Shown: in pieces, positions 2 to 50,926 of the stretch
Layout: each line of letters begins with the position of its first letter
Position numbering within the stretch: position 1 is the first letter of the stretch
Source of the DNA: Isoetes taiwanensis
Taxonomy: Eukaryota > Streptophyta > Lycopodiopsida > Isoetales > Isoetaceae
Assembly (NCBI GenBank): GCA_021234155.1
Contig: JAJEKV010000020.1
Location: 6,244,563 to 6,308,562, forward strand
Reading direction: 5' to 3'
Length of the DNA: 64,000 nt
The notes under the pieces: generated by a model
What the model was told of the DNA's origin: nothing
The model's database searches: none
The model's input: only the letters and a program-made list of their open reading frames with translations
Position numbers and translations under genes: made by a program

Positions 2-2311
2 AGATCCCTGGAAGAACACGTGCAACATCTAAGGAAGGTGCTCGACAAGTTAAGAAGGCACCAGTTGTACGCAAAGTTGTCGAAGTGCCACTTCGCAACG
101 GAGAGGGTGGTATACCTGGGGCATGTGATCTCATCAGAGGGGATTTCGACGGATCCTGCCAAGATTGAAGCAGTCATACAGTGGCCGGCGCCGAAGAACA
201 TCCACGAGGTCAGGAGCTTTCTTGGCCTAGCAGGGTACTACAGGAAGTTCGTGAAGAACTTTGCAAAAATAGCGGCTCCACTAACAGATTTGACGAGGGC
301 AAAAAAAGTAAAGGATTGGGCAGACCATTGGCAGAAGAAAGCCCAAGCAGGATTCGAGATGTTGAAGGAAGCTTTGACAACCGCCCCTGTCTTGACCCTG
401 CCAGACCTAGAGAAGGACAAACTTGTGGCGACAGATGCAAGTAAGATTGCCACAGGTGCAGTGTTGATGCAGGAAGAGCGAGTAGTGGCTTATGATTCTC
501 GGAAGATGAACGACGCCGAAACGCGCTACCCGATTAATGATCAAGAGTTGCTTGCAGTTGTCAGAGCACTAAGAATTTGGAGGCACTACCTGTTGGGGAG
601 GAAGTTCCAGTTGGACACGGATCATCAGAGCCTCCAATACGTGTTCACGCAACCACATCTCAACCCGAGGCAGCGAAGGTGGATGGAGTTCCTCGAAGAA
701 TATGACTTTGACATAGTCTATAAGCCGGGGGAGCTCAACGTGGTAGCAGATGCGCTTTCAAGGCATCCTCTGACAACAAGAGTGCACTACAATGCAATCT
801 CGACACTCAACAGCGACTTCGGTAAGAAGATCGAAGAAACCTTGCCGACAGATGCAGACTTCAAGGAAGTGTGGGCAAGCTTGTGCAAGGAGGCAAGAAC
901 AGATAAGGAGAGGGAGACCTTCAAGAATTTTAAAAAGGAAGGTAACCTTTTGTATCATAAGAACAAGTTGTGTGTGCCTGAATCATCAGGGGTGAGGAAG
1001 TTGATTCTCCACGACACCCACAACAGTCCAATAGCTGGCCATGCAGGATTTACGAAGACATATTTCAAAGTGTGCAGCAACTATTATTGGCCAGGGATGA
1101 AGAAGCAGGTGGCTCGCTACATCAAAGAGTGTCAGCAGACAAAGGCAGAGCAGCTTCGAATTCCAGGGGCATTGGAACCATTAGCGGTGCCGAACGCTAA
1201 GTGGGAAGTCATTAGTATGGACTTCATAATAGCACTGCCGAGAACAGTAAGAGGGAAAGATGCCTTGATGGTTGTGGTCGACAAGTTGTCGAAGATGGCA
1301 CACTTTGTGCCTTGCAGGACCACCGACACAGCTGTGGATACGGCGGCTCTCTTCACCAAGAAAATCTTCAGGCTTCATGGCATGCCGAGAGAGATCATCT
1401 CTGACAGAGACCCGAAGTTCATGAGTGCCTTCTGGCAGGATCTTTTTGCGACGATTCAGACGAAGCTGTTCATGAGCACGGCCTATCATCCTCAGACGGA
1501 TGGGCAAACAGAGCGGACCAACAGAATTTTGGAAGATATGCCACGAAACTATGTCTGGAACAAGCAGAGTATGTGGGAAGAGTATATTCACTTGGTGGAG
1601 TTCGCTTATAATAGCACCAAGCAAGAATCGTCCTGGATGTCGCCGTTCATGATCAACTATGGCTACCAATGTCTAACTCCAGACACTTGGCACAATCCTG
1701 TGTCAAAAGTAGAGGTTTCGCAGCAAATGTTGGCAGACATGCAGCAACTGGTAGAAGAGGTCCGAGGATATTTTCTTGCGGCAAGGAGTCGACAAAAGAG
1801 CGTCGCCGACAAGCATCGGATGGTCAGGGAGTTCCAGGTTGGCGACAACGTTTGGCTCAAGATCAAAGTGAAGCAGGCGAAGCTCCGCATCGGAAGTTGT
1901 AAGAAACTTGCTCCAAGGTGGGCTGGGCCTTTTAGAATAGCCAAGAGAGTAGGTAACCAATCCTACAAGTTAGAGCTGCCAGCACACCTGAAAATTCATA
2001 AAGTCTTCCACATGAGTTTGTTGAAGAAGCATACTCCAAATCCAGAAGAAGTCTTGGACAATCCAACGTTGTTGGAAATGATAGAAGAGCAGCTGGAGAT
2101 AGTTCCAAAATTGATTCTTGATAAAGCATTCAAGAAAACAAGGAGATCAGAGTTTCTCCAATATTTGGTCAAGTGGAAACACTTGCCGGTGGAAGACGCG
2201 ACATGGGTACTTAAGAAGGATCTAATAAAGCAGTACACCCAGTTTATGGAGCAATGGGACGGCAAGGTCATCTCCGAAGAAATCGGCTCAGGCATGTCCA
2301 TTTGTGCTTAG
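2..2311 (+). CDS. Ty3/gypsy chromovirus pol polyprotein, 3' part (RT end, RNase H, integrase, chromodomain)
   Basis: The frame is open from the window edge, so the protein is partial at its N end; gag, protease and the YxDD half of RT lie outside. In order: the RT C-terminal part with YLGHVIS and the [11 protein letters not shown] connection; RNase H, starting with [13 protein letters not shown] and ending [10 protein letters not shown]; integrase with an H-H-C zinc finger ([21 protein letters not shown]), the DDE core (first D in SMDFI, second in SDRDPKF, E in DGQTERTNR); a GPY/F-type module ([22 protein letters not shown]); and a C-terminal chromodomain ([16 protein letters not shown]). A chromodomain is the mark of chromoviruses and is thought to guide insertion to heterochromatin. 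The frame is uninterrupted for 770 codons, so this copy is young. The second Cys of the integrase CxxC is replaced by Thr (CQQT). Confidence 0.95.
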
Positions 2312-14285: not shown

Positions 14286-14945
14286 TTAAAACCCTTGACT
14301 CTGCCTATCTCTCACCACTTCAATCCCTATGAATTGCTTAAGTTCACCCATGTCAGACATTTTAAACCTTGCTTTTAGTATATCTTTGCATTTCTGCAAG
14401 CAAGTTGGACTGTTTGAGACCATAATGCAGTCATCCACGTAAAGAGCTATGATGCAAAACTGTTCCCCTGATTCGTACCGGTGTAAATTTCCGTCATTCT
14501 TCAATTTCTCAAAACCCTGTTCTTGAAGGAAATTGTCCATACACATATTCCATTCTCGAGGTGATTGTTTAAGGCAGTAGACAGTTTTCTTCAATTTCCA
14601 TACTTTCCCTTCTTGTGTCTCAAATCCCGGAGGCTGTCTCATGTATACATCACCTTCTAATTTAGCATTCAAAAACGCAGTCTTTACATCCATGTGGTGA
14701 AGTTCCAGGTTCAATGCATTAGCTAAGCTGAGTAGTAATCTCAAGCTTGAAAAGGTTTCACCATAATCTTTCCCCTTTTTCTGGGTATACCGTTGTGCCA
14801 CAAGTCTGGCTTTATGCCTTTTACTTCCATCTACATTTTCCTTGATTTTGAATATCCACTTGCATCCTATGATGTTTTGACTTGCTGGGCAGTCTACAAT
14901 CTCATATGTCTGTGTGCTACTAAATGAATCTAACTCGTCTTGCAT
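14286..14945 (-). pseudogene. Copia reverse transcriptase
   Basis: A single frame of about 219 residues covers the copia RT core (RVT_2): GCKWIFKIKENVDGS, KARLVAQRYTQKKGKDYGETFS, HHMDVKTAFLNAKLEGDVYM, QPPGFETQEGKVWKL and the catalytic YVDD box (ALYVDDCIMVSN). The RT lies 5' of RNase H and 3' of integrase on the minus strand, as in Ty1/copia. The core motif is intact, but the frame is closed at both ends by frame breaks (near 14945 and 14286), so the polyprotein is not expressed as one chain. Confidence 0.93.
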
Positions 14946-15557
14946 TGCATCAATCCATTTTTATTTTTCTTCACACATTCATATGAATTTGGCAACTCAA
15001 TGTCATCCATGATTGCTAAGATCTGATCATGTGTGACTTCCAAGTTTTCTACTCTTTTGCTCCTTCCTGCTTCATTTCTTCCGTATTCCTCCAAATTTAT
15101 TTTCAGATCTTCAGCTGGCTTCTCTGCTTGATTTTTCCTCCTCCTATGTACTACAGTTTCAATGTTTTGCTGATCTAGTTCAACTTCTGTGTGGAGTCCG
15201 CTGTCTACATTTTGTTGGCTGCTCATTTGCATTGTGTCTGATTCAGTACTTTCATCATCTGTATCCACCTCAAAATGCATTTTTTTTCTCTGATTTTGTT
15301 TCCTCTTGCTTTGCTTTTGCTGGATATCTATCCTTATACAGCACATCTTCATTAAATTGAACATCACGGCTGATCACAATCTCCTTAGTTTGTGGGACAT
15401 AAATTCTAAACCCTTTTGACTCATTGTCATACCCAACAAGAAAACCAATTATGGCTTTATCATCCAGTTTTTTTCTAAGTTCCGTAGGTATGTGACTGTA
15501 CGCTAAACATCCATATGTCTTAAAACTGTCATAATGCAATGCTTCATTTGAGTTTGA
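14930..15557 (-). pseudogene. Copia integrase C-terminus and acidic linker
   Basis: The frame ending at 15270 has the integrase tail found in all copia elements: HYDSFKTYGCLAYSHIP, LRKKLDDKAIIGFLVGYD and KGFRIYVPQTKEIVISRDV. It breaks at a T/A homopolymer near 15283 and continues in another frame (to 14930) as an acidic, Ser-rich linker (DTDDESTESDTM) leading to RT. Confidence 0.8.
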
Positions 15558-16087
15558 CTATAGGTTGAGAGGTACGTTACCTTGCAGTATTGCTGATGGT
15601 AGCATGTTTTGGATGCGAATAGCTGTATGCAGTGCTTCTTCCCAAAGATGATTTGGTAGGCCGCTATGCTTTATCATGGTTCTCACTGCGTCCATAATGA
15701 TTCTGTTCTTCCTTTCTGCCACTCCGTTTTGTTGCGGACTATACCTGCAGGTTAGTTGCCGTTTTATTCCGTTTGAAATACAAAAATGCTTGAACTTTTT
15801 TGACAGATACTCCCCTCCACGATCAGACCTAATACATCTAATCTTTTTTCTTGTTTGTCTTTCTGCTTCCGCCACAAAGTGTTTTAATGCAACAATAGCT
15901 TCTGATTTTTTTCTAAGGCAGTAACAAAAACATCTTCTACTGTAGTCATCAATGAAAGAGATAAAATATCTCTTGTTGGACCTACTTCGTACATTCAGGG
16001 GGCCACATAAATCTGCGTGGATTAATTCTAGTACTTCCTTGGCCCTATATTTTGTCTTTGCAAATGGCAGCCTATATTTTGTCGAAG
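15558..16087 (-). pseudogene. Copia integrase core
   Basis: Starts with RLPFAKTKYRAKEVLELIHADLCGP and continues with FISFIDDYSRRCFCYCL (first catalytic Asp region), IRSDRGGEYLSKKF (second Asp) and SPQQNGVAERKNRIIMD (Glu), the DDE triad in a copia context. An in-frame TAG at 15558-15560 stops the frame before the integrase tail. Its N-terminal zinc part lies about 1.9 kb away at 18037 onward, beyond the LINE. Confidence 0.92.
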
Positions 16088-16088
16088 T

Positions 16089-17849
16089 TTGAAACAAGAC
16101 CTCTATATATGCTTTGTAGATTTTACTTCTGCTTTTGATACAGTACCACGCGAGCTTCTTTGGCAGCGCTTGCAGGCACTTGGGGTTCCACAAGATCTTC
16201 AAAATGCAGTTTATCGGCTCTATGAAAGGGTTTTTGCTAAATTTCCAGCATCAGGTACTCAAATCACTAGCAATATTGGAGTTCGACAGGGTTGCCCTTT
16301 ATCTCCTACACTTTTTGGCTTGTACATTGATCAATTGGAAGAATGGCTTGATAATCATGGCGGCGGAGGTCCACATTTGGCACACTATATCATTAGGCAA
16401 CTTATGTATGCTGATGATGTTTCACTTCTGGCACATACCGCTGCTAGTATGCAGCAACATTTACATGCTCTGCACAGTTTCTGTGAGAACACAGGTCTGC
16501 GTGTTAATCTGCAAAAGACCAAGCTTTTGGTAGTTCAATCTTCTCGTCACAATGTTCCCCCTATGCACTATGATAGCCGCGAAGTTGAAGTTGTAGATAG
16601 CTACAAGTATCTTGGTGTAGAATTCTGTAAGAACACACTCTGGGAACAGTGTATTACCAAGCGGGTGGCTGCTGGATGGAGAGCACTCTATGCAATGCAA
16701 AACAATTGTTTTCGCGCAGAAATTCATGATTGGCCACGGAAAGCCCACTTGTTTCGGGCTTTGGTAGAGCCTGTTTTACTGTATGGTTCTGAAGTGTGGG
16801 GGCCTGCCATTAGTGCTAGTGCTTGGGAGAGCTTGGAGCGGGTGCAAAAGTCCTTTCTCACTTACAGCCTTGGAGTTAAAAGAACGGTACAAGCTATTTC
16901 AAAGCTTTTTGGTGTTCACGGGATTAGTAGAGCGGAAGTTTTCCATTTGGCGGGACTTCTTGGGTGTGGTAGATGGTGATGGTCAGTTTGTACAGCAGTA
17001 GAGTTGCAGTTGTTGTGGAGTGTCGAGGTATCACTGTCTCTTTGGGGCAGTTCTCCTTCCTCCTCACTTGCTTTGTAACATTACCATTCTTTTAATATAT
17101 TGCTGACACAGTTCTTCAAAATTTTTTAAAAGAACGGTGCCCTATGCTATTCTTTTACAAGAGACAGGTTTTTGGCCTCTTCAACATTCTGCCATGAAGC
17201 GCCATCTCCACTATATCTGCAAGGTGCACCACATGGACGATGTTAGGTATCCTGTTCTTGCACTTGCCATGGCTGAATCTCCTCAGCGTTTGAAACGATG
17301 TTGGAAAGAGCATTGCACTACATGGTTTGCACGTTGGGTTGGGGCAACCAGAGAACCGCCTCGATGCTTGCCGATTCGATCCGAGCTTTTGCAACAATAT
17401 CTTAATGGTCGCGTTTTTCTCAAAAGATATGGGGACTTGATTATTTTGGCCCAAGTGGCCGGTCATTATCATGCACACATAAATCCCACTTTGGCACCGT
17501 GGCCCCAAGCTTATTTGCTTGCTTCATTGTCCGGGAACAAGCTTGTAGCTATTGCATCAATTATACGCGGGGTCCCATTGTGCTACTGGATTGAGAGGCA
17601 GGTAGATGGGAGCGGCCGCAATTGCCGCGAGAAGCGAGACTATGTGCCTGTTGCCAGTTACAGGTTATTGAAGATGAAAGCCATACTCTTCTGAGTTGCC
17701 CTGCTTTTGAGATAGTCCGGAATCATTTTTCGACCTTAGCATTCCATTCCACGCTTCCACAACTTCTCAGCGCACCATCTGTGCATGACTTGGCATTATA
17801 CATACTTGAGGTTCTAGATAAACGTCTGCAATTACTGAGCCCTCAGTAG
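16089..17849 (+). pseudogene. LINE reverse transcriptase and C-terminal zinc region, interrupted
   Basis: The RT reads FVDFTSAFDTVPRELLW (motif A), GVRQGCPLSPTLFGLYID, the catalytic LMYADDVSLLA, GLRVNLQKTKLL and YKYLGVEF. The domain begins at motif A, so the endonuclease and RT fingers are absent. The frame is interrupted by a 237-bp insert at 16889-17125; skipping it continues the same frame. Near 17610-17640 a frame break occurs, after which a CCHC-type motif appears (CACCQLQVIEDESHTLLSC), typical of LINE ORF2 C-termini, and the protein ends at 17849. The copy is dead: 5' truncated, interrupted and frameshifted. Confidence 0.9.
16889..17125 (+). mobile_element. 237-bp retroposed fragment inside the LINE, with 13-bp target duplication
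   Basis: TTAAAAGAACGGT occurs at 16876-16888 and again at 17126-17138, and the LINE frame is restored when the insert and one copy are removed. The insert opens with protein-like sequence (GVHGISRAEVFHLAGLLG then stop) and ends TTTTAATATATTGCTGACACAGTTCTTCAAAATTTTT. A variable-length duplication over a TTAAAA site is typical of target-primed reverse transcription, so this is probably the 3' end of another non-LTR element. It is the third level of nesting. Confidence 0.8.
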
Positions 17850-18036
17850 TCATTATCTAAGCTTGTCTAGTATCATCATTACTGCAAAGGTTTTTCCCTT
17901 GAAAACCTTTCGAGGCAGGGGTTTTTTAATCCTAGTAGTAATGATTGTACTAGCCCATTGTATGGGTCCCATGACCTATTGGTCTTCGTGGACGTTAAAA
18001 AAACTATTCTATTCTATTCTATTCCTAGCATACATC
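17850..18036 (+). repeat. LINE 3' untranslated region and (TATTC)n tail
   Basis: GGCAGGGGTTTTTTAATCCTAG.. TGGACGTTAAAAAAA then TATTC repeats. The same 3' end occurs in two other places in this window, which defines the family's 3' terminus. Confidence 0.85.
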
Positions 18037-18600
18037 CCTCACATGAGAATTTGTCCGTCTTGAGGTCATTACAACTAAGCCAATCCTTTTTAACTAGAAA
18101 CTTTATGTTATTGCTGTTTGTATGCCCCAATCTGTTATGCCACAGTTCCAACTCATTCCTAGTTACTGAACTTATGCTTAAGCAAGTGTTGCCTTTCATT
18201 TGAAACAAGTTTCCACAACGATGAGCCAAAAACTTTAATTCATCTCCCAAGAAAATTTTACATGCTTTAGAGTCAAAATTAACTCTATAACCCAAGTCAA
18301 CTAACTGACTGACAGAAATCAGATTTTTGACGATGCTTGGCACACATAGAACATTTTCAACATCAATGATATTTCCTTGCAGATCCGTAAGTTGCAGCAG
18401 ACCACTCCCTTCAACTGATTGTAAATGCCCATTTCCTACTTGTATATTTTTTGAGTTGCTTTGCTTGATGTTCTTGAGCAGGTCAGTAGATTGAACTACT
18501 GATCTCTCAGCTCCACTATCAACTACAAGTGTGTCACAAGCATTGTTAGCTCCTTCAGTTCTATTAAGAATGGCAAACTCACAATTTACCTCATTTTCGT
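18037..18600 (-). pseudogene. Copia protease and GAG-pre-integrase region
   Basis: On the minus strand, near 18525, LVVDSGAERSVV contains the DSG active-site triplet of the retroviral-type aspartic protease. Further on are VPSIVKNLISVSQLVDLGY and the GAG-pre-integrase zinc region LELWHNRLGHTNSNNIKFL..CEGCMLG. The LINE follows directly after the last Gly. The same protease sequence style appears in the copia element at 48.6-51.5 kb, showing both belong to one lineage. Confidence 0.88.
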
Positions 18601-18639
18601 CTTCAGTTTCTTTGTCTTCTTGCTCACTTTCTTGTGCAA

Positions 18640-19560
18640 GATTTACTGCTGCAGGCTTCCTTCCTCCTCGACCTCTATTAGCATAGCTCTTTCCTCCTCG
18701 GGTGTCTTTTCCTTTTCCTCTCCCTTTACCATAGTCTTTTGGAGAGGAGCATCTTGCTGCTGTATGTCCACTTCCTCCACAATTAAAACAACTGATATCA
18801 TTTTTGTTAAGCTTAGGACATTCCCTTTTGAAGTGCCCTGACTCATGACAGTAAAAGCAATTTCCTTTGCTCTTTTTTCGGCATACAATATTTCAGCAGA
18901 TTCATCTCCTCCTTTAGTTAATTTTTTCTGTTCATATTCAGTTCTAAGCACATTTTCTACTTCTTCTCTTGTTTTGCTTATGTTTCTTATAAACAAAGCT
19001 AATTGATCATTTTCTATTATTGCCCTTGAAATCTGTAGCACTTGGCTTCTTTCGAAATATGTACACCTGCACCAGACAGATCTGCTATAATATTGTCGAA
19101 ATTGTTGAAAAATTCAGAGACATCTCCATCCTCCTGCAATTTTAGGCCTCTTAACTCTTCTTCCAACAGATCAATTTGTGAGGAGGTTTTTTGTTCATAG
19201 TTCTTAAGAAGAAAACTCCACATCTCCCTAGGTGTTTTATTTCTGAGCTTGAGTCTAATTATAGGACTCACCTTGCACGTTATGATCCCTCGGGCCTCTT
19301 TAACTTTTGCATATGCAGATCTCCCTGCACATCAACCCTCACAACTGTTCTTGCAGGACCAGATTCTCTTGTGACATCATTTGCATTGTTAGTAGCTACA
19401 TTAACAGAGCTTTCAGACCTGCTTGCAATATTTAACTCAAACTGAGTTCCTTCATTCCCTGGATCTACCCGATCCCATAATTCTTCAACCTCCAAGATGT
19501 GTTTGATTGAATCCTTCCACACTTGGAAACCAGCTCCCCCCTTAAAAACTTCTACAGTAC
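18640..19560 (-). pseudogene. Copia gag with two CCHC zinc knuckles, frame-broken
   Basis: Three minus-strand frames cover gag: an N-terminal part (19522-19280) with MWKDSIKHILEVEELWDRV; a middle part with TPREMWSFLLKNYEQKTSSQIDLLEEEL (19271-19017); and a part with IENDQLALFIRNISKTREEVE (19041-18880). In another frame at about 18745-18865 two CX2CX4HX4C knuckles are read (CFYCHESGHFKREC and CFNCGGSGHTAARC). At least three single-base frame breaks make it nonfunctional. Confidence 0.88.
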
Positions 19561-31012: not shown

Positions 31013-31614
31013 ACGGCGTGAGTAGCCAAGTCTCTATGGCAACATTTTTCTAAGTTTTACTAAAAGTAATGCACGTAATTACTAAATAATTCTAGCTAAC
31101 CTTTTTTACTACAATGAATTTGCTTTTTGCTACTTTTGATGTACATTTGAATTTATTTTACTAGGAATAGTAAATATGATCGTGGATTCGAACACACTGA
31201 AGATGGTTTCCCAATAACAACGCAGCATGTTCTAGACAAAACATATGCATGCTATCAATAAGTGTGCAGCCTTAATCACATTTTACATATAAAAACAACT
31301 AGCCATTCCATGATACAACATAACTGGGGTAACCAAGCTACCTCATTGTGGGGACAAAATTCGGCAAAGCACTTATGTCCTGGTCCATCCCCATTTATTG
31401 AAGTCATTATTGTGATGATGGATGCCTCTCCCACCGTTTCCTTTTGTTTAAGCGAAAGGGAACGGGTGGACCGCATGAGTTTCTTGTGTTGTTACTACAT
31501 TCCTTGGACAAAACTCTAATCCATTGTAATCCTGATTTTCTATGCCAGGAACCAGTTCTAATTTTTGGAGGGTAGGGTTTTTTCCGTATCTGCATGAAAA
31601 CAGTTGGGATCAAA
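31013..31614. other. Intergenic DNA downstream of the GH5 exons
   Basis: I looked on the minus strand for the remaining GH5 exons (an NEP-type acid/base motif and the nucleophile Glu) and did not find them. No other gene is supported. Confidence 0.45.
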
Positions 31615-33971
31615 TCAAATAAATATTATATATAATACTACTACTACTAAATTGGAATGTTGATATACTAACTTTTTGATGAGAAAGTTCATTGTGTCAA
31701 GTGTCTTAGCTCGTGGACCGAAACCATGACTATATCCAAGAAAATGCATTGATCCATAAGGAGATTTTGCCCCAACAACTTTAGGATTTTCATTCCAAAA
31801 TTCTTGTCTTATTATCAAATCTAACCCATCTTCTCCATCTCGATACCCTAGACTAGCTTGAAGGCTGATAATGATTTTGATGTTGTATCGTCTACAAGGC
31901 CAAGTTGCAAGAGCATAAAAATAAAAGAAAAAGAGGAGTTTAGAATTAGATTTAAAAATGAATGATACCTTGCCCAACAGAAAGCACTTTCCAAATATTT
32001 TGAGGCTCCTTCTACAAAAGGAGCTGGAGAATCTATCATCCACCATCCTACCGGAATTTTAACTACTCTTATTTGCTTTTGAGCAAATTCCATGAAGAGC
32101 TTTTCATTGACATAAGACTCCCAATGTTCCTGGTTAATAAACAAATTACTATTGACATATCAAAGAAAGTGATAGTCTTTACATATGCAAATGCTATAGT
32201 AGAAGAGTCCAGCTATGAGTTCAAATTTCTAGTATTAAATTTGAAGTATGACTAATAAGTGATAAAAAGGAAATATTCAAAATAATTACTCTAAATGTTT
32301 TCCCAACATAGCTATTATTGTCTATATCCTACATTACCCACTGACAAGAATGTATATGTGTATCATCATTGGAATAGGTTAAAAAAATGGACTTGACTCA
32401 CATTGATGATATTATAGTCAACATAATATCAACGACCTCAAGAAAAGCAAAATTATGGGCACTTAGACCATCTTGGCAGAAACGCCTCATCCAAATAGCA
32501 ATCTATGGAGGCATGGGTGACGCTCACATACTCAAATTAAGAGAGTGAGGCATTGGCTTTAAGATTGATCACTAAGGTTGACAAATTAGCTAGGCATAAG
32601 GTTTTGGCAATGGTGGGCCTAAAAAGCGGGGTTAGGGTTTGATTTTTTTTTTTTTGTTGCACGCAATCTAGTGGTTCTATGATAGAAAGCTGTGGCATGT
32701 GTCGCCCGAGCATGGCGGGTGGCCAAATCCAGTAGAGAAGGAAACCAACCCAGGTGGGTCGGATTCGTGATGGCAGATACTTGATTTTTATGTCATACCT
32801 TTGGTTCTCTAAACCAAGCATTTTGTACAACATTGTTGCCATTTTCCATCTTTGAAACGTTTTAATGCCTTGCCACATTCACTATAACCAAAAACTACAG
32901 TAGAATTCTATGCTTTGTTTTGCATCTCCAGCAAAATGCTCCCATTTTCTAGTATCCATCGAAAATATCTACTTTATGAGGGATCTACCAAATTTTCCGG
33001 AGCAGGTCTTATGAATTTTGTTCGAGTGGCGCTTATGTAGCATTGGAGAGGATCCGAGAGGATCAGAGCTGATGAAGAGGTTCCGGAGAGGTTCAGAGGT
33101 GGACGAGCGCTTCTAATTGCAAATTTTTTTCCTCTTTTTGCAATGGTTCGCGGCCATGTATTTGTCATTCCTATACGTAATTTCATATGTATATATGAGG
33201 TGTGAGGTGTATATTTGTGGACCCTAGATGTGGCATATTTGTAGGAATATGTCAAAATCCAATGAACCTTAAAAAACAGTAAGGAGTGTGCAATAAGGAA
33301 GGAGTGGCTTTAGGATTGATATAATTAGGCTTTTTAAGTGCACGAATCATGTACTTACTAAAATAGGTACGAATTAGTTTTTGTACCTTGAGAATTTTGG
33401 ATGCTGCTTCTTGACCATAGCCGTTAACAAGCTGAAACTCCCCACCGAGTGATGATACGATGGTCATTTCGAAAAGGGCAGGATCATTGTCGGACCATAC
33501 TTCTTCTATCGACGAAGATGCTATGACAGATCCATCTTCTTGTACCTGGTGAGATACAATTGCAAAATGAGACCCAATCAAAGTAACACATGCTGATGTC
33601 TGAGTACCTGAAGAAGGCGATGATCACTCTGTGGTTTGAAATGTACTTGAAATGTGTCTGTATCAGATTGGGGATTTGGGCTTACAATGATTTCGTGGGT
33701 CTCATTTTCGAATACCCAAGGAATTTGAATTTCGGCCCTGGTCCTCGAATATGGAAAAAACCTTTCGTATGGTGGCGCCAAAGCTAGGTATACCAAAACT
33801 TGAAACCTGTGATTGGCACACATCGTGAAAAAGGCATAAACACTTGCCAATCTTACTTACCTTGAATTCCTGCGCCTGCGATCTGAGATCCTTGTCTGCC
33901 CTCAACAATTTGCCATTAACTGACAGGTACTTTTGGAGCTTGACGGACTTCAATATGAAAACAGTTCCATC
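31615..33971 (-). pseudogene. GH5 glucan 1,3-beta-glucosidase-type exons (fascin-like domain and start of the barrel), truncated
   Basis: Exon 3 (DGTVFILKSVKLQKYLSVNG) and exon 4 (LWR.., then SPNPQSDTDTFQV in a shifted frame) match the fascin-like beta-trefoil of plant GH5 proteins. Exon 5 has DPALFEMTIV and GEFQLVNGYGQEAASKIL; exon 6 has IRVVKIPVGWWMID and PAPFVEGASKYLESAFCWA; exon 7 has NIKIIISLQASLGYRDGEDG and TLDTMNFLIKK. In active enzymes the exon 7 motif is VIIDLHAAPGSQNG; here His is replaced by Gln. The frame ends soon after, before the acid/base Glu (NEP motif) and the nucleophile. The intron at 32130-33386 contains a dispersed repeat. Enzyme activity is excluded; a decoy or decay reading both fit. 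Confidence 0.75.
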
Positions 33972-36230
33972 CTGGGTTGAATTCGAAGACTTTTAGTTAA
34001 GTAACACTTAAGTTATAGGGTTATACGTAGTTAGCATAAAGCATCATTTTCCAAATTACCAGTAGTTTAGGATTTGGTATTTGCTCGAATAATTCTGGCG
34101 TTTTCTGCTTGTCCACAACAAGCCACCCCCTCGGCTCCTCCACCATTGTGTTTTGCGTTGAATCGCTTGGAGCTTCAAGCATTGCCAGTGCTGCAGATTT
34201 TATAACATCCATTTCAATCTCAGAGGTCTCCTGAAATTTATCTTCTGAGAAGGTTCCCTCAGAGTAATACTCGAAGGCTTGATCCACTTTAGGAGTGACA
34301 CCGATTAGATGTGCCTTCTTTAGCAACTCAATGACTCTGCAGATTTGTGCAAACGATGGCCGATATGTTCCCTTTTCATTAGAGCATGTGTCAAGATACT
34401 TCAAAAGAGATGTAGGAATAATATCAGAAGGGGGTTTGGGGGGAGCACTAGCCACATCCGTATTTGGAGTCTCACAATCACAAGTTGTTGCGGAAGATTT
34501 TCTGAGTATATAGAAACAGGTTTTGGCATAACTAAAGACATCAACTTTTCTACTGTAATGTTCTGGAGTTTGAACCTCTGGTGCCATGTAAGGTGGGGTA
34601 CCCCTCCATCCTGTAGGCATTGTCGTATTGTTGGTGTTGAAATGGGAACTTGCAACTCCAAAATCAGCAACTTTGACATGAAAATACTTGCATCTTGGAC
34701 TGTCACAATTAATCAGCAAGTTATCAGGCTTCAAATCACGGTGAATTATATCATTATCGTGCAAGTAACGCATGGCCCGCGCAACTTGCAGCATGATATC
34801 TAGAGAAAGAGCATATGAGGGTTTGCATTCCTCCACAAATTTTGGAAATGGCTTTAGGCACTCCATGAACATCCGTCCATCCCCCCCTGCCACGTTAGAG
34901 GAGTAAACCACTGGTATAATATTAGGATGCTTTAATTTTGCAAGTGTGCCTACCTCTTTACATTCACCTTTGAACATTTTCATTGCAAGTATAACATGTT
35001 TCCACTTAATTGCAAAAACCTTACCATAACTACCTTCTCCCAAGACAATTCCTGTCTCTATCTCTTCCGTTTGCAAGACTGGATTTCCATCTCCACATGT
35101 CTGATGATCTGAACTAAACCCCTTTGTCAGAAGTTGAACCAACCCCAATTCATGAGCCAGTGGTTTATACTGAACTAAGTCATCTAAAAACTGTAGCTTA
35201 TCCTTTTGAGCATATGAACTAAGCATGACTGGCTTACTCAACATTGATGCCCTGAATTCCTTGAGAAAGTCGTCGACTACATTTTTCGAGAATATTAGGT
35301 CAATGATCAATACACAATGGTCATCCAATTGAGTAATGATCTCTTCAAACTCCTTCTCGGCATCTGATTTAAATAGTCCTGTAAGGAGCCAGTAACGACT
35401 TGTACAGAGTTGCAGTAAGAATTTCCCTCGTTCTAAGACTCCCAATATATGCCTAACAACTTTAAAGAGTTTTTTGTTCGACAGAAAATATTTCTTTGTA
35501 ATATGTTTTAGAATGTCCTGTGCAGCTAGCATCCTTTGAACTAGAAGCAGGCACTGATAGTAGTGTATCTTAAACTGTTCACGGAATAAATGTGATCCTT
35601 CCTCAACAAGCATAGCAATTACTCCTTTTGCCACTTTTGCCCCATCCTCTCTCCCTCTGAATGCAATATAAAGAAGTTATTAGTTAAGCTTCTGCTTCAA
35701 AATTCCTATACGACGTCCCTATTTGATACTTAATACAGTCAAGGGATGAGAAAGCTATTAAAGATTTATGCTTACACGGTGAAGCTTGGCAGGTCGAATT
35801 GAGCGGAGACCTCGTTCCATCGCTCAATGATTTGTTGAGCTTGAGAATTTCCATTGGCTGCTTCCACTTTAAATTGATCAAGCCCTCTCTCATAAAAAAC
35901 TGGAACAAACCTTTTCTTCTGTGTGCTCATCAGCTTAACATACATTTCCATAAGCGCAGGTTTGTGCTCTGAGATAATTGCTAGGTGCAAGTCTGCACTT
36001 TCGCATGTTAATGATGATGATTCAGTGTTGTATTCCTTATATGTGATTGCAAAGTGCCTTTCTTCGTTGAGCCAGCGTTGGAGCCTTTCAACTGCACCGT
36101 CCTTATTGATGCAGGAGATGAAGATGTCATGTTTGTGGTGACACTGATTATGAAGCTCAGGACGAGAAGAATCGTGAGTAACAACATTCACGAGGTTCTG
36201 CCTCTGGAAAAGTAATAGTAGGTTGCTCAT
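31615..36230 (-). CDS. Fusion gene: TIR-like domain - HeLo-like domain - protein kinase - truncated GH5 glucan 1,3-beta-glucosidase-type region
   Basis: Seven exons can be placed on the minus strand: 36230-35776, 35656-34060, 33971-33861, about 33783-33608, 33545-33387, 32129-31969 and 31891 to a stop at 31615. Introns have GT..AG ends. Phases fit: exon 1/2 joins mid-codon to give TVGREDGAKVAKG; exon 2/3 is phase 0 (IPNPKLL|DGTVFILKSV). That junction rebuilds the GWLV..LFDGIPNKDLLDGT signature at the start of plant GH5 glucan 1,3-beta-glucosidase-like proteins, so the kinase exon itself encodes the GH5 N-terminus. This supports one transcript, not two neighbouring genes. Exon 4 has an apparent frameshift near 33715, so the full chain may not be made; without the splice at 34060 the kinase frame ends at 34021. 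Likely role by analogy: an immune receptor-type signalling protein. Confidence 0.7.
32520..33240 (+). repeat. Dispersed repeat, copy 2, inside a GH5 intron
   Basis: Direct-orientation relative of 29620-31012, without its 331-bp insertion and a 300-bp internal block. It enlarges the intron between GH5 exons 5 and 6. Confidence 0.75.
34060..35656 (-). CDS. Exon 2: HeLo/DUF1221-like helical domain plus protein kinase
   Basis: Numbering from the Met at 35634: residues 10-165 are helical and resemble the N-terminal region of plant MLKL-type kinases (HYYQCLLLVQRM, KKLFKVVRHILGVLERGKFLL, CTSRYWLLTGLF). Residues 195-440 are a kinase with GEGSYG (199-204), LAMKMF (Lys 219), HRDLKPDN (298-305), VADFGVA (DFG 324-326) and PYMAPEV (APE 351-353). 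All catalytic residues are present, so it should be an active Ser/Thr-type kinase. Residues 500-525 (RGWLVVDKQKTPELFEQIPNPKLL region) are GH5 N-terminal sequence. The acceptor is TTGCATTCAG|AGGGAG and the donor CTACTG|GTAATT. Confidence 0.85.
35776..36230 (-). CDS. Exon 1: TIR-like domain
   Basis: The exon encodes about 152 residues. After some 33 residues comes HDIFISCINKDGAVERLQRWL, matching TIR box 1 (DVFLSFRGxD) in position. ADLHLAIISEHKPALMEMYVKLM fits the region SxxYxxSxWCLxEL that holds the NADase Glu, although Trp-Cys is absent; KRFVPVFYE matches TIR box 2 (VIPVFYDV). The Glu of ALMEMY may be the catalytic one. It is divergent and could be a non-catalytic TIR fold. The exon ends CCGT|GTAAGC. 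The ATG at 36228-36230 is the first in the frame; the protein starts there by inference. Confidence 0.6.
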
Positions 36231-40000: not shown

Positions 40001-41806
40001 GTCTTCTATGTGTTTTTACTCGGAAAACTTAAATCTTTCTACAGACATGTGTTTTTTCTACAGACTTAAATCTTCCAAGTTGAGGGGCACATTACTCAAC
40101 AAACTTAAATCTTCCAAGTTGAGGGGCAATGGTAAGCAATAGCATAGCAACTTTATATCAATCTTCTAGGATTCATATCACCATGTCAAATTTGAAGGCC
40201 ATATAGCAGTAAATAGAAGAATCTAGCACATATGTATAAGCAACTTCGACACAATAAAAGGGGGAAAAAAAGAAAGAAAAAAAAAAGAGATGCCATTACA
40301 AACATGCTAGATTACAAAATTGATGCATTACTAAGTTTGCATAATGAATTTGATAAGGTATGATGATGCCCTCAAATAGCCATTGGCATCTCTAAATACC
40401 TATTCACAACATTTTAAATGCCAACTCGATTAATTCTTTCTTCAGTGCATGGTGCTCATGGCACCTCCCAAAAAAATACCCAAGTATGCATATCCACTGT
40501 GATGACACATGAACCGTAACTCATTATAAACCCATTCTGATACTTTTGTGATGACACATGAACCGTAAGCTCATTATAAACCCTTCCAAAACTGATTTTC
40601 TCCTTTTCAACAAACCATGATGCATGATGTTGTAGAAAGAAAAAATGGATGGTGTAGCCCTTTGGAAGCTAAGAATGAAGGGCGAAACGCACACATCTCA
40701 GAGATAAGCACTCATGCACAATTTACTTGGAGCAAAGATGTGCCTATAATGTTGAGAAAATATATATAGTATTTCACTGTAATCCTTGACTTGATGTTTA
40801 AGCCTGACTTAGCACCATGAGTAATTTGTCAAAGACAACTAAATGCAAGTATCATTACTCAATTTTTTCTTAAGCCTTGGACGTGTGGCACATTTGAACA
40901 GTTAACAATATATGGTCAGAAGAAGAATATTTTGATAAATTTTCCATTCTATTCAATGCATGTAGCCATTAAATACAAACCACACAACCAAAGAATAGAC
41001 AAAAAGAAAAACTTCTCAAAGTATTCTTCTATTCTTAGCAAAGAGAACATATACACATGTAAGGCATCTCCTTATCTACTTATAAAGGATAAGAACTGGT
41101 TAGAGTAAATGTCTCTACCACTTCCAAAACTGTTTGCCAATATGCATGTACTAATTCAAACGTTGGCTTGCACAACAAACATAAGAACCACTTTGTTATA
41201 CGTCAATTACAGTCAAATCTTAGTCATTCATCTTGAATATAGGTACAAAAGACCAAAAAATCTGCTTAATATATTGCAGCAAAAGGCATGCCATAGAACT
41301 TAGAAATACCTCTAACAAACAAAAAGATTGAATTTCTACCTTTATTTTCTGAATGTGCAGCCTAAACATAATAGGTGGCTTACAATATGGACATGCAGCT
41401 ACAGAAAATACTTAGGAGTTGGATCATTGTTTACTGTATATGGTTTTGATCAGCATTGGCACAACACAACATGTCTTACCTTTAAGCACATAACTATATT
41501 TTCTTACTTGTACCTAAATCCTTGTGAGCATTAGCATCCAACTTGGCAATCACAATGTCTTCTTCTAGCTTATAAGCTGCTGCAAGCTGCTCATAAACCT
41601 GACAACAGATCATGACTTATCAATTACATGGGCATCCAACATAACACACAAAGTAATCCAAGAAATGTTCAAACCTCCCATTGATTAAATGTTATGACTA
41701 CAAAGGAGATAGGTAATTAGAAACATTCAAACTTAATTATTATGCATTACCTTTTTTCTGTAACTCGGGAGTAAGTTCACACTTTGTTCCAAAGGCAGTC
41801 TGACGG
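40001..41806. other. Intergenic DNA with small tandem duplications
   Basis: GATGACACATGAACCGTAA..CTCATTATAAACCC occurs twice (about 40500 and 40549), and ACTTAAATCTTCCAAGTTGA twice (about 40064 and 40102). No gene is supported in this AT-rich stretch. Confidence 0.45.
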
Positions 41807-43575
41807 GTGGTCTTGAGAATCGAAGGCAGAATTAGCAATCCAACAAATTGGGTAACTCTAAACGCAAAGGCACACATGCCATTCTCAAAGTGCAACACTT
41901 GCATTCAACTCAAGGATACACTTGCATCAACTGCAATAGAGAAAGAAAGAATGGCAATTAGGGAGCAATTTGCAGATCACCAAAGGGACCAAATATCATG
42001 TAGACAGTTGTATTGGCAGTGGAGAACATTTTCTGAGATGCAGCCGGACAAATTTTTGTGTATAATTCATGATAAGATGGACCAACACAAGACTTTCTTG
42101 CCAAAGCTAGATCCTTTACCCAAGCGTTGTCAAAACGCTTTTCAGATGAAAGTAAGTCTGGCGGGTGTCTTAACACATGGTCATGGAACTGGAACATATG
42201 GTCATTTTGTGCTTGATCTATGGAGGGATAATCCAAACTTCCATGTGAGCTCTATTTTCAAGTGCTTGAGAACACTAGAGAAAGGATCGATAGAAGGGAG
42301 GAGGTATTCCCATTCAGCACCCATTTTTGAGGCTTTGATGGATGATCAACCGCTTTGTTACCAAAGGCAAATAAAAAAGCTCACATCCAAGGTGTCTAGT
42401 GAATCAAGGAGGACTTGGGATGATTTCCCCTTACTTGAGAAACCACTGCCTGAGGAGCTATGTGTTCAATTGGACAATTGTTGGAAAGAAAACAAGAATA
42501 GATGGATGTTTGGGGCAATGTCATACTTGACAGCAGTGGGAGTATTCAAAGTTGTGAAAGTGGGATTCATGATGGTTGGGCATACGCATGATGATATAGA
42601 TGGATTCTTTGGAACTTTCTCCACCAAGCTCAAGAGAGAAAACGTGACTAGTCTCCCTGAACTAATGGATGTGTTTGAGAGCTGCATTGACCCCAACCCA
42701 ATGGCTTTCTTGATGGATGAGGTTGCAGATTGGAAATCATTTGTAGAGGGATACTTGCTAGATGGTAAGGACCGGTTGACCGGGACACACAAAGCCACTT
42801 CAGTTCAAGTTTTGGGTTAGGGATGGAATACCAATCATGCAATATAAGTGGAGACCAGGTGACAAGTTGTGGATGCATGTACAAGGAATCGAAGTTGTGG
42901 CAAAGGGGTCTTTCTTTGGTGAAGTTCTCATTCCTAAAGGGCAGCCAAAACCACTACCTCCCCTTCAAGACTGCCAAAGACTCTAGCCAACTAGTGAAGG
43001 GCATCAAGGATTACATAACGCGACTTTGGGATGATGTTCGAAATGGAAAGCACACCTCCACTCTTAAGAAAAATCAAATGGACTCCCTAATCAAGTACTG
43101 GGAGAAAGTTGTGACATGCTTAGAAACTGAACAACCATGTGGGAGGGAGCTAAGAGACGGGTTCTTGCCAGAGTCAAGATGGGAGGGTTCTCAAGGAGCA
43201 AGCACGTCTAAGAATGTTCACTTGGGTCCTAACAAGGGTTCCAAGTGGTTTGTGGGAAGTAAGGCCTCAAAGCCGAAGTGGTTTGATCTTCCTGAGTGGG
43301 ATCCCTTTGAGGACATCAAGGAAGGATACTTTGTGCTAGTAAGGCCTGATGATGAGGACTGTCCAATATGGTTAGGGGTGGCACTCTCTGATGTAACCAC
43401 CACTATGCCTGATGGAGAGGAGTTGTGTCCTGGATTCCAAATTCAATATTGGGAGCCCATTGGGAGACATAAGAAGGGCAACTTGAAGGAGCAATACACT
43501 GACTGCTGGGAGAAGAAGTGGAGGGCAAATCATGCTGATCCTCAAAGGAGGGAATTGGTAGAGTGTGTGGTATAG
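41807..43575 (+). pseudogene. DUF7869-domain gene with frame breaks
   Basis: The first frame (to 42820) carries the DUF7869 pattern: PFSKCNTCIQLKD, CIIHDKMDQHKTFLP, HGHGTGTYGHF, LCVQLDNCWKENKNRWMFG, VGFMMVGHTHDDIDGFFGTF. The family is found in plants and invertebrates, often in many copies; the fold resembles DDE-type nucleases and a transposon origin is suspected. After 42800 the coding passes through a second frame (FKFWVRDGIPIMQYKW) and then into the frame ending at 43575, whose C-terminus (DIKEGYFVLVRPDDEDCPIWLGVALSD) looks like a BAH-like module. At least two frame breaks mean this copy cannot give a full protein, unless the breaks are sequence errors. Confidence 0.72.
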
Positions 43576-49247: not shown

Positions 49248-50926
49248 ATGGCTAGCCGGTTTGGAGCTTCCCTGCTGAGTGCAGTGGATGTGTATAATGG
49301 TGGGTCTGGATTTCAAGTATGGAAATCCAAAATTAAGAGGATCTTGAAGACTGAAGGAGTATGGGATATTGTGAAGCCTCCGAAGGGTGCAGATGAGCTG
49401 CACAAAGCAATGGCAAAACTCGAGAAGCTGAAACTGAGTGATGAGGAAGTAAAAAAGGAGAAGAAGTCCAAGGACAAAGCTGGTGCATCTGATACATCTG
49501 CAAAAATAAACGAAGCAAAAGGTATCATTTGTAGCAAGGTTAGTCCGAGCATTTTGTTGAGATTGCAAGGATTATCACCGGGTAAAAGCATGCTAAGGTG
49601 TACCATCTAAAGTTCTTTTTAGGGAGTGCAAAACTACCCAAAAAAGTACCCAGCACTGGGTACTGGGAACTTCCATAAATGTCTCAATAAACAATAAGTT
49701 TGAGAGTTGATTCATTCATTTTAGACTCTAATAGTATTGTTATCCTCTACTACTATAGATTGACATGTTATTGACCTTCAATTCAAAATTTTTGGATTGA
49801 TTTTAATGGAAAGAAAAAACAGAAAGTACCAGTTTTAAAAATACCCAGTGTAGGTACTTTTGAGGGTTCCAAAAGTGGTACACCGTAGCATGCTTTCACC
49901 CCACCGCAAGAGATGTGGCTGTATCTTCTCAAAAATTATGAAAGTAAGTCATCTTCGCAAATTGATGTTTTGGAAAGGGAACTAAGACGTCTTAAATTTC
50001 ATGATGGTGATAATCTAGAAGTATTTTTTCAAACTTTGGATATGATAGTGTTTGATTTAAAAGCTGCTGGTGCTGTATTATCCAAAGAAGCTGAGATATT
50101 AGCTATCTCAAGAGCTTTCTCAGCATATGATGAGCAGATTGCAATGTTTCTGAGGAATGTAGCAAAGAATCGTGAACAAGCAGAAAGGATAGTCCGAACT
50201 GAAATTGAGCAAAAGAAATTAGTAAGAAACGATGATGAAGGGGCTGAAATTCTTTACACAAGAGGTCGCAAAGGTAGAGGAGGTAAAGTTGGTCCATGTT
50301 TTGCATGTAATGAGTACGGGCATATAAAAGCTAATTGTCCAAAATTAGGCAAAGAAATATCATGCTATAACTGTGGGGGGAAAGGTCATATGTCACCAAC
50401 TTGTTCTAGTCCAAAAAACAAAGGAAGAATTGCAGGTAATAGAGGAGGAGCTTCACGAGGAAGAGGTCGGCGCAGATCAAATTCCGTGAATATAGCTGTT
50501 GAATCCACTGAACAAGAAGAAGATACTGAGGTAATACCTGAGATCTGCATTGGTATTAAAGAAAATACTCGTGCTAATTCTCTTGTGATAGATAGTGGAG
50601 CTGAGCGATCCGTAGTCAGCTCTCCAGATATGCTTGTTGGATGCTCAATGTCTGGACCAAGACATATTCAGTTGGGCAATGGGAGCCTGCAACAAGTTGA
50701 AGGAGTAGGGATGCTAGAGTTGTTTGATTTGGAAGGCAAACCTGTAAGCCTGAAAGATGTTTTGTGTGTGCTGAATTTGATCAGAAACTTAATTTCTGTA
50801 AGTCAGATAGTAGACTTGGGTTATAAGGTAGTATTTGAACAAAAATATTGCAAGATATTGCGTGATAATAAAAGAGTTTTCTTAGCAAGAAGAATTGGTG
50901 ACAGGTGCATGCATCAAGTTTATTAA
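49248..50926 (+). pseudogene. Copia gag-protease, split by a MITE
   Basis: The first part (49248-49594) has GGSGFQVWKSKIKRILKTEG and KINEAKGIICSKVSPSILLRL. After the MITE the frame from 49913 gives EMWLYLLKNYESKSSSQIDV, a gag body, two zinc knuckles (CFACNEYGHIKANC, CYNCGGKGHMSPTC), a Gly/Arg-rich stretch, and the protease motif LVIDSGAERSVVSS. It ends by reading into the right LTR. Similarity to the element at 12.8-20.2 kb (KNYE..SSQID..LE.EL) shows common descent. Confidence 0.88.
49595..49886. mobile_element. hAT-like MITE with 8-bp target duplication
   Basis: AGCATGCT flanks both ends (49587-49594 and 49887-49894). The terminal inverted repeats are AAGGTGTACCA and, on the other strand, ACGGTGTACCA. 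At 292 bp, with an 8-bp duplication and no coding capacity, it fits a non-autonomous hAT element. It interrupts gag. Confidence 0.8.

Follow-up and report, generated by a model that had tools for sequence, protein, structure and literature searches.

The Triticeae kinase fusion proteins (Sr43, Lr9, Pm4, Yr36 and others) join a kinase to an unrelated domain, which was proposed to be an integrated decoy with signalling through the kinase, and they are apparently unique to the Triticeae, according to PMC10260397. Pm13, as described in PMC10951266, is a plant MLKL protein that gives mildew resistance and has two domains only, an MLKL-type helical domain followed by a kinase. Immune receptors of the nucleotide-binding leucine-rich repeat (NLR) class with integrated domains, which carry a look-alike of a host target, have been reported from seed-free plants too (PMC11218826). 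Here we describe a gene on the minus strand of a 64,000-nucleotide stretch of Isoetes taiwanensis DNA (contig JAJEKV010000020.1; hereafter the window), in which a kinase exon runs in frame into a region of glycoside hydrolase family 5 (GH5) type, and a family of related loci in the same genome.

Like the Triticeae proteins, the Isoetes gene combines a kinase with an unrelated domain, and like Pm13 it appears to carry a HeLo/MLKL-type helical domain N-terminal to the kinase. It differs from the former in that the extra domain is an apparently dead GH5 front part, that HeLo-like and alpha/beta domains precede the kinase, and that the plant is a distant one; unlike Pm13 it has a GH5 tail, and its HeLo domain is recognised only through relatives. 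With integrated-domain NLRs it would share a host-target look-alike inside a proposed immune receptor; unlike NLRs, it gave no Pfam match to NB-ARC in the window exons (E up to 1) or in the relative L016 (E up to 10), and no leucine-rich repeat was detected in Pfam scans of the same sequences. Plant GH5/DUF7910 proteins of glucan 1,3-beta-glucosidase type, represented in this genome by the gene L039, have DUF7910, the GH5 front part and the intron phases in common with the fused tail, whereas the tail lacks their catalytic residues and second half. The tobacco chitinase-related receptor-like kinase CHRK1 is a membrane receptor kinase with its chitinase-like domain outside, and resembles the present gene in that a glycoside hydrolase domain is joined to a kinase. 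None of the titles and abstracts listed in literature searches describes such a fusion, subscription papers being mostly beyond reach.

Structure of the window gene

The gene has eight exons, given here with their domains in window positions.

35776..36230, minus strand: exon 1, alpha/beta N-terminal domain; open from ATG 36230 (start codon assumed), donor gtaagc, phase 2
35656-34060, minus strand: exon 2, HeLo/MLKL-like domain, kinase and GH5 start; donor gtaatt after 34060
35077..35655 (approximate limits), minus strand: HeLo/MLKL-like helical domain in the 5' part of exon 2; profile-profile match via relatives
34339..35046 (Pfam limits), minus strand: protein kinase domain; PF00069, 2.7e-33
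34060..34131, minus strand: beginning of the GH5-type region, within the kinase exon, RGWLVVDKQKTPELFEQIPNPKLL; read directly, same place in relatives
33861..33971, minus strand: exon 3, first part of DUF7910; both ends in phase 0, matching the ordinary GH5 gene L039
33608..33783, minus strand: exon 4, middle part of DUF7910; start placed by homology; 40-nucleotide deletion near 33718, frameshift, in-frame stop 33684-33682
33387..33545, minus strand: exon 5, end of DUF7910; phase 0 at both ends
31969..32129, minus strand: exon 6, GH5 front part (KIPVGWW..APFVEGA); from reading and relatives
31673..31891, minus strand: exon 7, GH5 front part; SLQASLG where ordinary GH5 has DLHGAPG
31448..31589, minus strand: exon 8 and stop codon; acid/base motif NEP missing

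The sequence-only reading had claimed that the kinase exon continues in frame into a GH5 start and that the next exon takes this region up in phase 0, and both claims were borne out: exon 2 ends with GWLVVDKQKTPELFEQIPNPKLL, followed by the donor gtaatt after 34060, and exon 3 (33971-33861) opens after AG with DGTVFILKSVKLQKYL. From N to C terminus, the fusion comprises an alpha/beta domain, a HeLo/MLKL-like helical domain, a kinase, DUF7910 and the front part of GH5. The glycine loop, catalytic Lys, HRDLKP, DFG and APE of the kinase are all present in window exon 2. DUF7910 is weak in the window, with Pfam E values of 0.008 for exon 3 and 0.0025 for exon 5, and the tail without exon 4 scored 34.2 bits against a cut-off of 35. 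An exon 4 acceptor just before 33806 was rejected because it yields stops, and 33783 (CTAG, then CTTTGG) was placed instead from relatives.

Recurrence of the fusion in the genome

The 1.66-Gb assembly (1110 contigs) was searched with the kinase exon, and 81 of 1315 candidates were scored, so that all locus counts are lower bounds. At least ten related loci were found, namely the window and nine others (the 10 best matches, E <= 2e-52). At nine of these 10 best loci the GH5 start (residue 532) lies inside the kinase exon with exon 3 behind it, a recurrence which argues that the join is not due to chance; at the tenth, L011, the GH5 start and pieces of the GH5 exons lie about 5 kb further along, and the beginning of exon 3 is gone. 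None of the remaining 71 scored matches extends beyond residue 470. Exon 1 is present at seven of the ten loci, the completeness of the tail exons varies among the relatives, and a genome search with the GH5 tail detected an extra fragment of such a tail on contig C732.

Two loci, L016 (1069 amino acids) and L010 (976 amino acids, exons 6-8 being read from stretch L038), stay open through all eight exons, whose phases fit and whose introns have GT-AG ends, and thus hold a kinase and an unrelated domain in one reading frame; they are 36% identical to each other. The window copy, L011 and L014 each have all five kinase motifs, and the DFG of L016 was missed by the motif pattern, yet its translation reads GDFG. 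In a kinase-domain tree of 27 rows, comprising seven fused rows (L012, L013 and L017 were left out) and 20 rows from 19 other kinase loci, the fused rows formed one clade with support of 100/99, indicating one gain. As far as tested, the fused kinases are a gene family with a single origin.

Origin of the tail and constraint on it

In the ordinary GH5 gene L039 (without its first exon), DUF7910 is the first domain (3e-47), and Cellulase was matched at 1e-23. In the intact fused tails Pfam recognised DUF7910 (L016, 2e-16; L010, 3e-15), and neither tail reached Pfam Cellulase; the L016 tail matched exo-1,3-beta-glucanase structures (1eqp, 3e-12) from the last part of exon 5 into exon 7, with residues 54-141 as the best stretch. 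L039 is 34-35% identical to the fused tails (E 8e-47 for L016 and 7e-45 for L010), and intron phases of 0,0,0,0,2,2 stand at matching places in both, which indicates capture in the form of genomic DNA rather than through a spliced copy.

The catalytic residues of GH5 enzymes lie in NEP and GEW. In the alignment, LNEPHVGV of L039 is absent from the fused tails. DLHGAPG reads SLQASLG in the window copy, with His replaced by Gln, and the other fused tails resemble it here. The tails end soon after this place, before GEW, and the second half of the enzyme is absent; when the DNA downstream was scanned at five loci for three GH5 motifs, none turned up. Because it is without NEP and everything after it, the fused tail should be no glucanase.

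Constraint was estimated with Nei-Gojobori counts on tblastn-based codon pairs (15 pairs run), in alignments that keep matching stretches only and with deep synonymous divergence (dS) close to saturation. For GH5 exons 6-8, the ratio of nonsynonymous to synonymous differences per site (pN/pS) was 0.41-0.54, with upper bootstrap bounds of 0.54-0.73, in all eight between-group pairs with data; two pairs within the L009/L012/L013 group were uninformative and five pairs were without data. The values for window-L014 and window-L016 were 0.42 (0.30-0.58) and 0.42 (0.31-0.54), and those of the kinase in the same pairs 0.50 and 0.52. The GH5 exons are thus under purifying selection and about as constrained as the kinase. 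Between the window and L014, dS was similar along the gene (0.73-1.23, leaving out exon 4 with 22 codons and 0.44), consistent with a single unit of uniform age.

Damage in the window copy

Relative to L009, L010, L012 and L013, window exon 4 carries a 40-nucleotide deletion that shifts the frame, so that the conceptual protein has 754 amino acids and stops at 33684-33682. Exons 5-8 (to 31448) are open and could be reached in frame only by skipping of exon 4, which would give 947 amino acids; an alternative intron of about 45 nucleotides that restores the frame was judged too short on hand reading. A sister copy (L040) lies inverted on the same contig, about 67 kb from the window gene (G000:C1019:6347130-6357650, plus strand), with a kinase 97% identical to that of the window over 274 residues; it is without the 40-nucleotide deletion, but the beginning of exon 3 is missing and exon 5 contains TAG. 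The window copy is a damaged family member that now probably ends inside DUF7910, and the full fusion is probably no longer made by this copy itself.

Related kinases with other tails

Ten related kinases were scanned with Pfam for further domains, which were located as follows.

L027:2582-5185, plus strand: kinase and GH18 chitinase-type tail, sharing one open frame
L034:2162-4792, minus strand: kinase and GH18 chitinase-type tail, sharing one open frame
L021:2568-4610, minus strand: kinase with AIR9-type domain
L028:2487-4775, minus strand: kinase with AIR9-type domain
L035:3220-5355, plus strand: kinase with AIR9-type domain
L036:3163-5559, plus strand: two kinases
L037:3222-5972, plus strand: two kinases
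L031:1501-4602, plus strand: two kinases
L033:3140-4870, plus strand: kinase and start of a P-loop protein

GH18 was above the cut-off in L027 (1e-20) and L034 (1e-35), whose signature regions read FNGLVIDWQY and FNGLVIDWRY, respectively, and lack the catalytic Glu. With GH5 tails on one side and GH18 tails on the other, glycoside hydrolase tails thus occur in two separate groups of these kinases. An AIR9-type immunoglobulin-like C-terminal domain was above the cut-off in L021 (5e-7) and below it in L028 (2e-5) and L035 (0.002), a second kinase stood in one open frame in L036, L037 and L031, and the C-terminal P-loop start of L033 was below the cut-offs. L030 gave no second family in Pfam and looks by eye like a further degenerate GH18-tail case. 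In the metagenome proteins P0003 and P0004, obtained in a protein search with exon 2, a kinase of this type stands behind a region that appears HSP70-like by eye.

Interpretation and alternative explanations

It had been proposed from the sequence that the gene encodes an immune receptor into which a cell-wall enzyme is integrated as a decoy; this proposal fits the family, with its kinase (motifs complete in the window copy, L011 and L014), HeLo-like domain, catalytically dead but constrained GH5 part and many copies at every stage of decay. The window copy looks broken in the tail. We assign a probability of roughly 50% to the reading that the fused kinases are a family of one origin whose GH5-derived tail would serve as an integrated decoy, with an output in defence or cell death, and that the window copy is a damaged member. 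DUF7910 and the GH5 front part were captured from an intron-bearing GH5 gene and stand in frame behind the kinase, with splice phases conserved; the captured tail no longer has its catalytic residues, and its GH5 exons are under constraint. As a bait, the tail may mimic a GH5 glucanase that pathogen molecules bind or inhibit, and a disturbed tail might cause the kinase and the HeLo-like domain to give the defence or cell-death output. This decoy proposal is modelled on the cereal kinase fusion proteins and on MLKL-type Pm13. If it holds, the family, together with its relatives that bear chitinase-type, AIR9-type and second-kinase tails, would show that the design of a bait on a kinase arose outside the Triticeae, in a distant plant, and dead hydrolase tails would suggest that pathogen molecules target cell-wall hydrolases. 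More speculatively, HeLo-kinases of this seed-free plant could be a separate class of intracellular immune receptor that repeatedly took up dead cell-wall hydrolases (GH5, and GH18 in L027 and L034) and other domains as baits, uniting sensing, kinase and MLKL-type executioner in one chain with no NLR; we regard this as a tentative extension that is rather unlikely as it stands.

The HeLo domain, also claimed from the sequence, gained support only by way of relatives, through a profile-profile match and one MLKL_N match near the cut-off, whereas window exon 2 itself had no direct Pfam match. The helical domain matched the N-terminal domains of a set of seven other kinases from this genome (hhalign probability 95.4, E 1.9e-8, shallow alignment), and the kinase sits after it in exon 2, in the MLKL-type order. 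In exon 1, DIFISC, LHLAIIS and FVPVFY look TIR-like by eye, and a single-sequence model of low confidence (predicted local distance difference test score, 51.5) has a strand/helix order compatible with TIR; no exon 1-like sequence was found in the DNA retrieved near 20 other kinase loci.

Several observations weigh against the decoy reading. Within the related set, Pfam MLKL_N was matched by only one of seven sequences (6.4e-6; 26.2 bits, with the cut-off at 27), and a PDB profile search using the seven related kinases returned no MLKL. The TIR domain proposed from the sequence was not recovered in exon 1 by Pfam (0/7 members), PADLOC (0/7) or NCBIfam (0/2 exon-1 sequences), and PDB sequence searches with exon 1 gave no TIR chain. 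Eight of the ten loci, the window copy among them, are damaged or incomplete: stops occur within the stretch matching exon 2 in L012 (one), L013 (seven) and L015 (six), L009 is out of frame near the end of exon 5 and L014 in exon 4, and L011, L015 and L017 miss several exons. The Asp of DFG is lost in L009, L010, L012 and L013. When the window was compared with these same four loci, pN/pS was 0.83-0.92 for the helical domain and 0.61-0.69 for the DUF7910 exons, with bounds that include 1 in both cases, so constraint on these two parts cannot be claimed for the family's younger members. Furthermore, a protein search with exon 2 gave 4401 kinases, with a GH5/DUF7910 Pfam entry in none of the 120 matches listed, and no fused relative was found in other species, although two GH5-region queries missed even ordinary GH5 proteins, so that absence elsewhere is unproven.

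Instead of an effector bait, the tail could be a carbohydrate or ligand sensor in which glucan fragments bind DUF7910 or the GH5 remnant. The derivation from a glucan-acting enzyme family, the fact that Pfam recognised no domain but DUF7910 in the tail, and the chitinase-type tail on other kinases of this kind are in line with such a sensor, yet the barrel is preserved in its front part only, Gln stands in place of the His of DLHGAPG, and the protein is assumed to be cytosolic; we consider a sensor an unlikely explanation, at about one chance in five. Similarly improbable is an ordinary regulatory kinase family without an immune role, in which the tail is a scaffold or merely tolerated; the many damaged copies speak for it, and against it speak the constraint on the GH5 exons, similar in degree to that on the kinase, and a HeLo-like domain and varied C-terminal domains of related kinases that resemble immune receptor families. 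That two adjacent genes or an assembly artefact were read as one is very improbable, since the GH5 start lies inside the kinase exon at nine loci and two of the loci are open throughout with fitting phases, even though the window frame, taken alone, breaks in exon 4. A working bifunctional kinase-glucanase is the least probable of all: the GH5 homology speaks for it, and the fused tails speak against it, with NEP deleted, His changed to Gln, the second half absent and Pfam Cellulase not reached.

For the window copy, the question is what is still made. It is fairly likely that its GH5 tail is a relic, the product consisting of exon 1, HeLo domain and kinase plus a DUF7910 stub, or ending at 34021 in the intron. 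Both the deletion with its stop in exon 4 and the different lesions that hurt the same tail in the sister copy support a relic, although skipping of exon 4 would preserve the 947-residue frame. The decoy reading of the family already includes such a damaged copy.

Surroundings of the window gene

The window gene lies in a repeat-rich stretch with retrotransposon pieces (reverse transcriptase, integrase, gag), and a further open frame is present in the window.

2-2308, plus strand: retrotransposon piece
14289-14960, minus strand: retrotransposon piece
16032-16976, plus strand: retrotransposon piece
18017-18892, minus strand: retrotransposon piece
49889-50923, plus strand: retrotransposon piece
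41804-42817, plus strand: open frame with DUF7869 (1.5e-40)

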